A DNA stretch of 46,041 nt, from NCBI GenBank assembly GCA_030611385.1, contig JAUWPV010000013.1:1-46041 (forward strand). Direction: 5' to 3'. A program made the position numbers and the translations under genes. The notes below the pieces were generated by a model, which saw only the letters and a list, made by a program, of their open reading frames with translations, did not search any database and was not told where the DNA came from. This document shows positions 8,134 through 13,252 of the stretch, in pieces; position 1 is the first letter of the stretch, and each line of letters opens with the position of its first letter. The DNA is from Bacillota bacterium (GTDB lineage: Bacteria; Bacillota; Dethiobacteria; DTU022).

Positions 8134-8385
8134 ATGGCAAAAACTTTGTATGTGGGGAACATTCCCTGGAGCACCAAGGAAAGCGATCTCGAACAGTTCT
8201 TTACGCTATATGGTGAAGTGTTTGAGTGCCGCATTATTACCGAGAGAGCCACCGGACGTTCCCGCGGTTACGGTTTTGTTGAAGTGAACGATGATGATAT
8301 GGATGAAATTATGGAGAAAACGAACGGTGCAGAGATGGAAGGACGTAAACTGGTAGTTAATGAAGCAAAGCCACGTGAACAGTAG
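8134..8385 (+). CDS. Small single-RRM RNA-binding protein
   Basis: The 83-residue protein is a single RNA recognition motif. RNP2 is LYVGNI (residues 5-10) and RNP1 is RGYGFVEV (about 45-52), with the aromatic residues that stack on RNA in place. Such stand-alone RRM proteins are common in cyanobacteria and scattered in other bacteria, where they are proposed to bind mRNA, often under cold or stress. Its targets here are unknown. The ATG at 8134 has CGGAGG 10-15 bases upstream, and the gene may have its own promoter (TATAAT at 8106-8111). It interrupts the usual nadD-yqeK adjacency, which suggests a later insertion. Confidence 0.93.
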   Translation: MAKTLYVGNIPWSTKESDLEQFFTLYGEVFECRIITERATGRSRGYGFVEVNDDDMDEIMEKTNGAEMEGRKLVVNEAKPREQ

Positions 8386-9499: not shown

Positions 9500-10369
9500 A
9501 TGGGCAATAGAGCATTACAACAGGCAGTTGTCGATGCCGCCGCAGAAGGGAAGAATCCTGCCGGCGAAAATTACCGCTTTTTGTCGCTTGGCGCGACCAA
9601 AAAACTCGCCCGGGATCATCATATATCCGGTCGCCTCATTGAGCTGACGGCTCTGGAGGCGGATATCATTCCCGAACGGTACCAGCGCAATATTGGGACG
9701 ATCGGGCTGAAAGGCCAGATCCGGCTATTGCAGGCAACGGTAGGTGTACTCGGGGCTGGCGGTCTGGGCGGTTTTGCCATGGAGCTTTTAGCCCGGATGG
9801 GTGTTGGCAGGTTGATTATCGTCGATGATGACACTTTTTCCGATAGCAACCTGAACCGGCAGCTTCTGGCTACCGAAAAGAATTTAATGGAACCGAAAGC
9901 AGAAACAGCGGCGAAGCGAATTGCCGATGTTAACGGGTCGGTGGAAGTGAAAGATTTTAACTGCCGCGCTGAAATAGCGACCCTGGCCGAAATAATTGCC
10001 GACTGTGATCTTGTTCTCGACTGTCTTGACAACCTGCCCTCACGATTTGACCTGGAAAAGGTCTGCCGGAAGCTCGGCATAATTATGGTTCACGGCGCTA
10101 TTGCCGGTTTTCTTGGACAGCTGGCCGTGATCAGGCCGGACCGCCCGCTTCTTTCATCGATATACGGAACAACGGGAGATCGCTGTGTTGAGAAGGGTGT
10201 AGAAGTGCAGCTTGGTAATCCGGCGACTACTCCGGCCATGCTGGCCGCATGGCAAGTCAGTGAAGCCGTGAAAATTCTGGCTGGTCTGGATGGTGTTCTC
10301 TCCCCGGACAGACTCTTGATTATTGATATGCAGGCTGGAGAATCATATCAGGTCGAGCTTGCAGGCTAA
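9500..10369 (+). CDS. ThiF/MoeB/HesA-family E1-like adenylyltransferase
   Basis: The 289-residue protein has a short N-terminal helical region (about 1-70) and a ThiF-type Rossmann domain. The ATP-binding loop is GVLGAGGLGGFAMELLARMG, then DDDTFSDSNLNRQLL supplies the conserved Asp and Arg, and DCLDNLPSRFDL the second Asp. Such enzymes adenylate the C-terminus of a ubiquitin-like sulfur carrier such as ThiS or MoaD, or modify small molecules. The paired CXXC zinc ligands of MoeB and classical ThiF are absent, and no carrier, JAMM protease or sulfurtransferase gene lies nearby. The ATG at 9500, with AGGAGG at 9486-9491, is preferred to the TTG three bases upstream. The true substrate cannot be told from this window. 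Confidence 0.85.
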   Translation: MGNRALQQAVVDAAAEGKNPAGENYRFLSLGATKKLARDHHISGRLIELTALEADIIPERYQRNIGTIGLKGQIRLLQATVGVLGAGGLGGFAMELLARMGVGRLIIVDDDTFSDSNLNRQLLATEKNLMEPKAETAAKRIADVNGSVEVKDFNCRAEIATLAEIIADCDLVLDCLDNLPSRFDLEKVCRKLGIIMVHGAIAGFLGQLAVIRPDRPLLSSIYGTTGDRCVEKGVEVQLGNPATTPAMLAAWQVSEAVKILAGLDGVLSPDRLLIIDMQAGESYQVELAG

Positions 10370-10387
10370 AAATGTTCCCTGGTGCTA

Positions 10388-10416
10388 TTGACAAGGGTTA
10401 GAGCCGTGCATATAAT
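10388..10416 (+). promoter_or_regulatory. Consensus promoter for the T-box/tRNA-Ala/leuS transcript
   Basis: TTGACA (10388-10393) and TATAAT (10411-10416) are perfect consensus boxes with a 17-base spacer. Transcription would begin near 10423, upstream of the whole T-box leader and about 190 bases before the embedded tRNA gene. Confidence 0.92.
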
Positions 10417-10611
10417 GTTAGTTGCACTTGAGGTCGCCATATCCAGTTTGATGAAGGGAAGCAGTAGACAGGTATGCTTTCTCAGAGAGCCGGCGGCTGG
10501 TGAAAACCGGTAGGCAGAACTGTTGAACTCATCCTGGAGAAGCGGCGGTGAAGATAGTCAAGCCGCTGTCGTATCGCCGGCGTTAACGGCAGAAAGCGGG
10601 TTGCAAATCGG

Positions 10612-10686
10612 GGGGCTGTGGCGCAGTGGGAGCGCGCTTCCTTGGCATGGAAGAGGTCGCGGGTTCGACTCCCGCCAGCTCCACCA
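10612..10686 (+). tRNA. tRNA-Ala (anticodon GGC) inside the leuS T-box leader
   Basis: A full cloverleaf folds without mismatches. The acceptor stem pairs 10612-10618 with 10676-10682 and includes the G3-U70 wobble that identifies tRNA-Ala. The D stem is GCGC (10621-10624) with GCGC (10632-10635). The anticodon stem is CTTCC/GGAAG with loop 10642-10648 and anticodon GGC at 10644-10646. The T stem is GCGGG/CCCGC with loop TTCGACT. The discriminator is A10683 and CCA is encoded (10684-10686). It reads alanine GCC/GCU codons. It has no separate promoter or terminator that I can see, so it is probably co-transcribed with the leuS leader and cut out. Confidence 0.96.
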
Positions 10687-10720
10687 ATTGTTTAACTAAT
10701 AAGGGTGGTACCGCGGATAC

Positions 10721-10753
10721 AAATCCGTCCCTTGACTGGGCGGATTTTTTATT
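10721..10753 (+). terminator. Intrinsic terminator of the leuS T-box
   Basis: AAATCCG (10721-10727) pairs with CGGATTT (10741-10747). With one bulged T, CCC (10729-10731) pairs with GGG (10738-10740). A T-run follows. It overlaps the antiterminator 3' strand, as T-box regulation requires, and also lies just downstream of the embedded tRNA. Confidence 0.88.
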
Positions 10754-10774
10754 TGAGATGGAGGGATAAAACTC

Positions 10775-13252
10775 TTGACAAACTATAACCCTGCTCAGAT
10801 CGAGGAACGTTGGCAGAAACTGTGGGAAGAAGAAGACTTTTACCGGTCGGAAATAGATGAATCAAAGACCAAATACTATGTTTTGGAGATGTTCCCCTAC
10901 CCTTCAGGTAAACTACATATGGGTCACATGCGTGTCTATTCAATCGGCGATGTTCTGGCCCGCTTTTTAAGAATGCTCGGTTATAACGTCATTCACCCCA
11001 TGGGTTGGGATGCTTTCGGTTTGCCCGCCGAAAATGCCGCGATAGAGCACCGGATTAACCCTGCTCAGTGGACCGTCCAGAATATCGAGCATATGAAACA
11101 ACAGCAGAACAGGCTTGGACTCAGCTACGACTGGCGCCGGGAAGTCAATACTGCGGCACCGGATTACTACCGCTGGTCGCAGTGGCTGTTTTTACTGCTA
11201 TATAAACGGGGCTTGGCCTACAAGAAGAAGGCCAGCGTTAATTGGTGCATTGACTGTGAAACTGTTTTGGCCAACGAACAGGTCGAAAAAGGGCTCTGCT
11301 GGCGCTGTTCTTCGGTAGTCGAAACCAGGGAACTGGAACAGTGGTTTTTGAGAATTACCGACTATGCCGAAAGACTCTTATATGATCTTGATAAGCTTGA
11401 CGATTGGCCAGAGCGTGTCAAGGTGATGCAACAGAACTGGATCGGCCGCAGCGAAGGGGCGGAAATCATTTTTAAGATTAAGGAATTTCCCGGTGAAGAG
11501 GTCCGCACCTTTACCACCCGTCCTGATACTCTTTTTGGAGTTACCTACATGGTTTTAGCTCCGGAACACCCCCTGGTTAAGAGATTGATTGCCGGAACAG
11601 ATTGCGAGGAAGCGATTCTCGATTTTGTGTTACAGATCAGGCAGGAAAGCGAAATTGAGCGCACTGCCGAAGAGGCCCCCAAGATCGGTCTTTTTACCGG
11701 CAGGCATGTCATAAATCCGATCAACGGCGAAGAGGTGCCCATCCTGGTGGGCAACTATGTATTAATGGCTTACGGCACAGGCGCAGTAATGGGTGTGCCC
11801 GCCCATGACCAGAGGGACTTTCTCTTTGCGAAAAAACATAACCTTGCGATCCGGGTTGTCATCCAGCCGGAGGGTGAGGTGCTTTTCGATCAGACTATAC
11901 CGGAAGCCTATACCGGCGAAGGCATCATGGTTAATTCCGGATCTTTTGATGGCCTGAACAATATCGAGGGGATCAAAAAGGTAACTGCACATCTGCAAGA
12001 ACAGGGTTTGGGCTGTTTTCGGATCACCTACCGCCTGCGTGACTGGCTGATCTCCCGCCAACGTTACTGGGGAGCGCCCATCCCAATTATTTACTGTGAA
12101 AAATGCGGTGCCATACCCGTGCCTGAGTCGGAACTACCGGTTGAACTGCCCCGGGAAGTTGAACTTTCCGGTAACCGTGTACCCAGCCTGGCTCATTATC
12201 AAGATTTTGTTCAGGTTAACTGCCCGGTCTGCGGTGGACCGGCCCGCCGGGAAACCGATACGATGGATACTTTTATCTGTTCTTCCTGGTATTTTTTACG
12301 TTATACCAGCGCCCAAAGCGCCGACGTGCCCTTTGAGTCGGAAGCAGTTGATTACTGGATGCCGGTTGATCAATATATCGGTGGTATTGAACATGCTGTC
12401 CTGCACTTGCTTTATGCCCGCTTTTTCACCAAGGTCCTTTTCGACGCCGGCCTGGTTAAAACTGAAGAACCTTTCAGCCGTTTGTTGGCCCAGGGGATGG
12501 TCTACAAGGATGGGGCAAAGATGTCAAAATCGAAAGGAAACGTGGTTACTCCTGATGAAATTGTCGAGAAGTACGGCGCCGATACCGGCCGCCTCTTTAT
12601 ACTTTTTGCTTCGCCCCCGGAAAAGGATCTAGACTGGAGCGACCAGGGAGTCGAAGGTTGCCACCGTTTCCTGCGCCGGATCTGGCGCCTGGCTGAAGAA
12701 TGCCGGGAACAGTTTTCTACTCAAGGTGGCACAGTTGAGAGTGGTGGAAAAGAGATTGGTCTTCAGCGCAGCGTCCATGCCGCGATCCGGAAAGTAACCT
12801 GCGACATTCAGGAGCGCTTTAACTTTAACACGGCGATCAGCGCGATTATGGAGCTGGTTAATGCCATTTATGCGTACCGGCAGTCGGCGAAGATTACTGA
12901 TCAAAATCATATCGTTCTGCGGGATGCCCTGGATAAGACAATCCTACTGCTGGCTCCTTTTGCGCCGCATTTGGCTGAGGAAACATGGCAAATGCTTGGG
13001 CATTCGGAAAGTGTGCACCGTCAAGATTGGCCGCAGTATGATCCGGAGAAGCTATTGGTTAAAGAAATTGAAGTGGTGATCCAAATTAACGGCAAGGTGC
13101 GCGGACGGATTACTGTAGCGGCTGGTTGCCCACAGGATGAACTGATTGAAGCAGCCCGCGGCAATGAACACATTGTAGAATTGCTGGCTGGCCGGGAAGT
13201 ATTAAAAGTAGTAGCCGTCCCCGGCCGCCTGGTTAATATAGTGGTCCGCTGA
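10775..13252 (+). CDS. leuS: Leucyl-tRNA synthetase
   Basis: The 825-residue class I synthetase attaches leucine to tRNA-Leu. It has the HIGH-type motif KLHMGHMRVYS (about residue 48), a zinc-type cysteine cluster (CIDCETVLANEQV followed by CWRC), an editing domain (about 220-420, with TTRPDTLFGVTYMVLAPEHP and GTGAVMGVPAHDQRD), the KMSKS loop in DGAKMSKSKGN and an anticodon-binding C-terminus. The TTG start at 10775 has GGAGGG ten bases upstream. Expression is governed by the T-box at 10423-10753, so leucine starvation should raise it. Confidence 0.98.
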   Translation: MTNYNPAQIEERWQKLWEEEDFYRSEIDESKTKYYVLEMFPYPSGKLHMGHMRVYSIGDVLARFLRMLGYNVIHPMGWDAFGLPAENAAIEHRINPAQWTVQNIEHMKQQQNRLGLSYDWRREVNTAAPDYYRWSQWLFLLLYKRGLAYKKKASVNWCIDCETVLANEQVEKGLCWRCSSVVETRELEQWFLRITDYAERLLYDLDKLDDWPERVKVMQQNWIGRSEGAEIIFKIKEFPGEEVRTFTTRPDTLFGVTYMVLAPEHPLVKRLIAGTDCEEAILDFVLQIRQESEIERTAEEAPKIGLFTGRHVINPINGEEVPILVGNYVLMAYGTGAVMGVPAHDQRDFLFAKKHNLAIRVVIQPEGEVLFDQTIPEAYTGEGIMVNSGSFDGLNNIEGIKKVTAHLQEQGLGCFRITYRLRDWLISRQRYWGAPIPIIYCEKCGAIPVPESELPVELPREVELSGNRVPSLAHYQDFVQVNCPVCGGPARRETDTMDTFICSSWYFLRYTSAQSADVPFESEAVDYWMPVDQYIGGIEHAVLHLLYARFFTKVLFDAGLVKTEEPFSRLLAQGMVYKDGAKMSKSKGNVVTPDEIVEKYGADTGRLFILFASPPEKDLDWSDQGVEGCHRFLRRIWRLAEECREQFSTQGGTVESGGKEIGLQRSVHAAIRKVTCDIQERFNFNTAISAIMELVNAIYAYRQSAKITDQNHIVLRDALDKTILLLAPFAPHLAEETWQMLGHSESVHRQDWPQYDPEKLLVKEIEVVIQINGKVRGRITVAAGCPQDELIEAARGNEHIVELLAGREVLKVVAVPGRLVNIVVR

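Follow-up and report, generated by a model that had tools for sequence, protein, structure and literature searches.

In Escherichia coli, tRNA genes are cotranscribed with mRNA at metY-nusA and thrU-tufB. RNase J/Y cleaves the T-box leaders of Bacillus subtilis thrS and thrZ at an AU-rich position ahead of the leader terminator, which yields a shortened synthetase mRNA (PMC3997798). Within T-box riboswitches, the discriminator of aminoacylation includes the RRRNG-stem III-AA motif (PMC7583486; PMC7778990). A tRNA gene nested in a T-box, of which the first-pass annotation of the present locus knew no described example, was likewise not found in the literature searched; an earlier mention is possible, since a 2008 T-box survey and a 2009 review fell outside the search. 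Here, we describe a leuS leader of a Bacillota bacterium, located in a 46,041-nt stretch of DNA (the window), in which a tRNA-Ala(GGC) gene is enclosed by a leucine T-box.

Anatomy of the leuS leader

The leader lies on the + strand between a ThiF-like ORF and leuS (leucyl-tRNA synthetase, 10775-13252, TTG start), which is 62-79% identical in relatives with a close match. A sigma-70-type promoter, TTGACA-17-TATAAT, occupies 10388-10416 with a 12/12 consensus match. No second promoter-like site was found within 10300-10900, and neither a promoter nor a separate T-box was found between the tRNA end at 10686 and leuS. The T-box model RF00230 matches 10442-10735 over model positions 1-219 with 109.6 bits, the gathering score being 93. 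Based on this alignment, stem I spans 10442-10540, with the specifier codon CTC (CUC; leucine, reading tRNA-Leu GAG) at 10528-10530, and stem II together with the stem IIA/B pseudoknot region spans 10542-10590. The stem III purine motif RRNG (AAGCG), defined in PMC7583486 and recurring across relatives, lies at 10594-10598. The strands of stem III, GGTTG at 10599-10603 and TAACT at 10693-10697, form a weak helix of five pairs, two of which are G-U, as recognized by flank pairing, and the conserved AA follows at 10698-10699, as recognized by flank comparison. The T-box core AAGGGTGGTACCGCG, which forms the antiterminator with its UGGU bulge, occupies 10701-10715. The leader terminator (10721-10753) consists of a hairpin at 10721-10747 and a T run; the hairpin overlaps the 3' side of the antiterminator, so that the two are alternative structures ahead of leuS.

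Between the strands of stem III lies tRNA-Ala(GGC), 10612-10686, on which RF00005 and ARAGORN agree. It has a cloverleaf, the GGC anticodon, G3:U70, A73, and CCA encoded at 10684-10686. The first-pass annotation had proposed a leucine T-box at leuS, an intact tRNA-Ala, one consensus promoter driving both, and a T-box terminator that also ends the tRNA transcript; all of these elements hold at their coordinates. MFE folding of the leader gave z of about -0.7 without recovering the cloverleaf and is uninformative.

The CTC specifier agrees with the amino acid of the regulated gene. The embedded tRNA was considered as the T-box's own ligand and rejected, because its GGC anticodon cannot read CUC; its A73, however, would be compatible with the UGGU bulge. 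The gene for the expected ligand, tRNA-Leu(GAG), is present in the window's genome (G000), where it appears at the ends of two contigs (C33:4-86 and C38:56-138; L152 and L153), probably as one gene assembled twice, or as a repeat. The same genome contains eight other T-box matches, and the seven examined as loci all lack a tRNA. Elsewhere in the window, an 83-aa RRM-type RNA-binding protein is encoded at 8134-8385 between nadD-like and yqeK-like ORFs.

Distribution, placement and integrity of the nested tRNA

A pattern scan of a GTDB-based collection of about 85,000 genomes, in which a T-loop had to be followed by a T-box, gave at least 119 loci. The tRNA-bearing set comprises 113 loci (112 from the scan and the window's own) with an ARAGORN tRNA 0-60 nt before the T-box. 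Chance pattern matches without a tRNA (L012, L015, L026, L070, L078, and L093) and four Armatimonadota matches without a tRNA acceptor were set aside; in L020, which is near the edge of its stretch, the same tRNA end is visible in the sequence. The tRNA is tRNA-Ala(GGC) in 113/113 listed loci, so that the arrangement first noted in the window recurs among its relatives, in at least 113 loci with one and the same tRNA. leuS lies downstream in 109 of them, the remaining four being contig or stretch ends. The strict pattern undercounts the nesting, which also occurs in families with GGTGGTAACGCG, GGTGGAACC, or CGTGGTACC cores. A T-box regular expression was blind to the cores GGTGGAACC, CGTGGTACC, and AGTGGTACC, and embedded cases with these cores were added by eye.

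Among the matches listed, carriers belong to Bacillota, Chloroflexota, Armatimonadota, Coprothermobacterota, Caldisericota, and Actinomycetota. The listed genera include Syntrophomonas, Thermosyntropha, Desulfofundulus, Desulfovirgula, Orenia, Pelotomaculum, Symbiobacterium, and Sphaerobacter, and the listed MAGs are labelled Anaerolineae, Armatimonadota, Coprothermobacterota, Caldisericota, and Actinomycetota. Well above a hundred bacterial species, from several phyla, share the nesting. In the window's class, the pattern is present in 34/98 genomes, every one from the window's own family (34/43), and in its phylum in 82/398 genomes and 53/267 genera. The corresponding counts are 23/301 genomes for Chloroflexota, 2/119 for the phylum of the Actinomycetota-labelled genome, and 16/43 for the Armatimonadota sample, about 12 of the latter with a tRNA acceptor. 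A reversed-pattern control returned 0 matches in the 98-genome class, the 398-genome phylum, and the 301 Chloroflexota, and 1-2 matches in the looser searches of Armatimonadota and the Actinomycetota-labelled phylum. Collectively, these pattern counts indicate that the nesting is common, far beyond chance.

The leucine switch is retained along with the tRNA. The specifier CTC was read automatically in 101/129 embedded leaders and is visible in most of the remaining segments. The cut-off of RF00230 is exceeded across the nested tRNA at loci of Peptococcaceae, Desulfovirgula, Syntrophomonas wolfei, Orenia, Symbiobacterium, and Chloroflexota. An ilvE-like aminotransferase gene lies between the T-box and leuS in some lineages, which fits leucine control. 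The nested leuS T-box thus appears to be a functional leucine switch. In Pelotomaculum/Desulfofundulus-like lineages, the intervening gene resembles an AMP-binding acyl-CoA ligase, as identified by eye. The loci with such a gene between the tRNA-bearing T-box and leuS are L047, L074, and L081, and L017, L034, L079, L089, L111, and L121.

The first-pass annotation placed the tRNA between the codon-reading and antiterminator halves of the leader. The T-box does enclose the tRNA, and comparison across loci refines its position to the tip of stem III. Across the 113 listed loci, the layout is constant: 5'-RRNG, helix strand, tRNA, helix strand, AA-N2-RG, and GGTGGTACCGCG. In a duplex search, the stem III flanks had a mean duplex energy of -11.1 kcal/mol; exchanging partners among loci raised it to -7.5 +/- 0.26 kcal/mol. 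This search chose a wrong register for the window and its close relatives, so that anchored tests were used. With a pairing-blind anchor, in-register pairing was 68%, against 53 +/- 1.5% for swapped and 32-44% for slid partners, and every stem III position showed at least four pair types across loci. The AA after stem III is present in 95/109 listed loci. Because the flanks form a covarying helix together with RRNG and AA, the embedded tRNA is assigned as the apical loop of stem III, a placement that is visible only by cross-genome comparison. Stem III strength and spacing differ widely between loci, and in 28/101 the helix directly adjoins the tRNA with zero unpaired 5' nucleotides. In the window's own family, stem III (10599-10603/10693-10697) is unusually weak relative to other carriers, with about five pairs including wobbles.

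Furthermore, the embedded tRNA is well preserved. The acceptor stem is paired at 7/7 positions in 136/136 embedded copies, G3:U70 and A73 are kept in 134/136, and CCA is encoded in 107/136. U is found at position -1 in 95/136 copies, and a U at this position is favoured by RNase P. The window's genome has 42 tRNA matches, exactly one of which is tRNA-Ala(GGC), the copy in the leuS leader. In 20 other genomes, the tRNA-Ala(GGC) pattern gave one match in 16, none in 3, and three in 1. Use of the embedded tRNA is implied by its being the sole gene with a GGC anticodon found in the genome, and the gene is apparently functional.

Origin and decay of the nested arrangement

To place the nesting in bacterial history, a LeuS tree of 141 rows was built with FastTree, with limited support. 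On this tree, the Bacillota versus Chloroflexota labels need 3 changes and the nested state needs 21. The nested state is found throughout Chloroflexota and, within Bacillota, among deep-branching members such as Symbiobacterium-like and Thermaerobacter-labelled ones. The exact combination of Ala-GGC, stem III tip, CUC, and leuS points to a single origin followed by many losses, and the decay products described below support the same history. Some horizontal transfers of the arrangement are likely, and the nested gene is most likely ancient.

Several states of decay were observed. In L169, L170, L171, L194, and L208, the sensor and T-box are gone, while the promoter, the tRNA, and the old CGTCCCT-type T-box terminator are kept. 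In the Chloroflexota locus L211 (oriented positions about 1290-1400), the T-box is kept and the tRNA-Ala within stem III is a fossil, GGGCCTGTAG...CAGGTCCA, reduced to the acceptor stem; the same genome has an intact tRNA-Ala(GGC) at another place (L249). Both modules are lost in L164 and L172-L176, and the leuS T-boxes of L185, L198, L200, L205, and L206 have short, ordinary stem III hairpins without a tRNA. In the Anaerolineae-like Chloroflexota L234, L236, and L238, tRNA-Ala(CGC) and tRNA-Ala(GGC) stand just upstream of a complete T-box; a tRNA outside the leader of relatives, which the first-pass annotation regarded as contrary to nesting, does occur, but as a minority state. These three loci, as well as L219, L220, and L224, also of Chloroflexota, have a second tRNA-Ala, with anticodon CGC, immediately ahead of the leuS leader.

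The tRNA and T-box modules decay independently. The first-pass annotation had also suggested that the tRNA might be held in place as a structural module; it does cap stem III, but the relics and the T-boxes lacking a tRNA show that each module can do without the other. Since the embedded copy is normally the sole tRNA-Ala(GGC) gene, it would not be lost until a second copy exists. The relic loci offer a natural deletion series.

Decision and processing, and comparison with known systems

We consider it probable that the locus is a functional leucine T-box with a functional tRNA-Ala(GGC) gene as its stem III loop, that is, a nested dual-output unit in which the decision is made before processing. 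The anatomy, specifier, stem III placement and covariation, tRNA intactness, apparent single copy, breadth, and relics are read from sequence. From these we infer the order of decision and processing, the tRNA output in both states, and the fate of the mRNA, as follows. RNA polymerase would initiate at the single strong promoter for both tRNA-Ala and leuS, tRNA-Leu(GAG) would be recruited by stem I and stem II, and tRNA-Ala would fold as the tip of stem III. The choice between antiterminator and terminator would fall within the next ~60 nt of transcription after the tRNA. With charged tRNA-Leu, transcription would stop at the leader terminator and yield pre-tRNA-Ala; with uncharged tRNA-Leu, it would continue into leuS. 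tRNA-Ala would be contained in every initiated transcript, and leuS only in the leucine-starved fraction. RNase P and 3' processing would then excise the tRNA, cutting the sensor from the antiterminator after the decision and leaving a leuS mRNA that has been processed ahead of its coding sequence. The model needs RNase P to act after the decision because earlier cleavage would sever the sensor, and the short distance from the tRNA end to the terminator makes this order likely. One transcript appears to act as both leucine sensor and alanine tRNA source.

Since the cut has to fall exactly between the sensor and the antiterminator, processing might serve as a second control, with RNase P cleavage or folding of tRNA-Ala on the nascent RNA competing with tRNA-Leu sensing and leuS depending on both leucine and processing capacity. 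The conserved U at -1 is in line with this, as is the abutment of stem III on the tRNA in part of the loci, since leader pairing slows RNase P (PMC9433436) and a paired leader could do so here. We nevertheless regard such control as unlikely, because ~60 nt suffices to reach the terminator, so that the decision probably comes first, and because the widely varying strength and spacing of stem III reveal no tuned geometry. Equally doubtful is a two-input riboswitch, conserved since before the Bacillota/Chloroflexota split, in which maturation of the embedded tRNA-Ala (RNase P cleavage or folding) joins the leucine decision and links processing capacity or alanine-tRNA supply to leuS expression.

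A dependence of the riboswitch on the tRNA, either as a stem III scaffold or as a timer giving tRNA-Leu longer to bind before the terminator, would draw on the position of the tRNA at the tip of stem III, which is part of the discriminator (PMC7583486), and on the ~75 nt of extra transcription between sensor and switch. However, many leuS T-boxes lack the tRNA and the L211 T-box persists with only a fossil, which renders the dependence quite improbable. Leucine status could also set tRNA-Ala supply if short terminated precursors matured well and long leuS read-through precursors did not, the 3' trailer of the tRNA being either the T-box terminator or the entire leuS mRNA. This seems very unlikely, as the sequences hold no evidence of coupling and some lineages keep tRNA and terminator without the sensor. 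Finally, an assembly error or an inert insertion of a dead tRNA copy is hardly credible: nothing was found in its favour, single-contig genomes (G131, G137, G164, and G185) carry the nesting, and the tRNA retains all its identity elements and is intact, apparently single-copy, and present in several phyla.

The preferred reading, a nested unit that decides before it is processed, has several consequences. The regulatory RNA would contain a site that RNase P has to cut, allowing a direct test of whether the T-box decision precedes tRNA processing. Stem III is shown to tolerate a folded 75-nt domain. Moreover, annotation pipelines are predicted to list tRNA and T-box separately, or to miss the T-box, at nested loci.

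Compared with the thrS and thrZ leaders of B. subtilis, the outcome would be similar, in that sensor and switch are separated, but here the cuts would be those of tRNA maturation. Like E. coli metY-nusA and thrU-tufB, the locus has a protein gene whose 5' leader carries a tRNA under the same promoter; there, the tRNA stands beside a structured regulatory element, whereas here it lies inside one. We would class the nesting as a variant of the T-box riboswitch, of which it is a member by every testable criterion, with the addition of an apparently functional tRNA gene unreported in known members. With the transcriptional leuS type of RF00230, it shares stem I, specifier, stem II, IIA/B, RRNG...AA stem III, antiterminator, terminator, and leuS; it differs in that the stem III loop is an apparently functional, non-cognate tRNA gene, so that the maturation of one product would cut the regulator.
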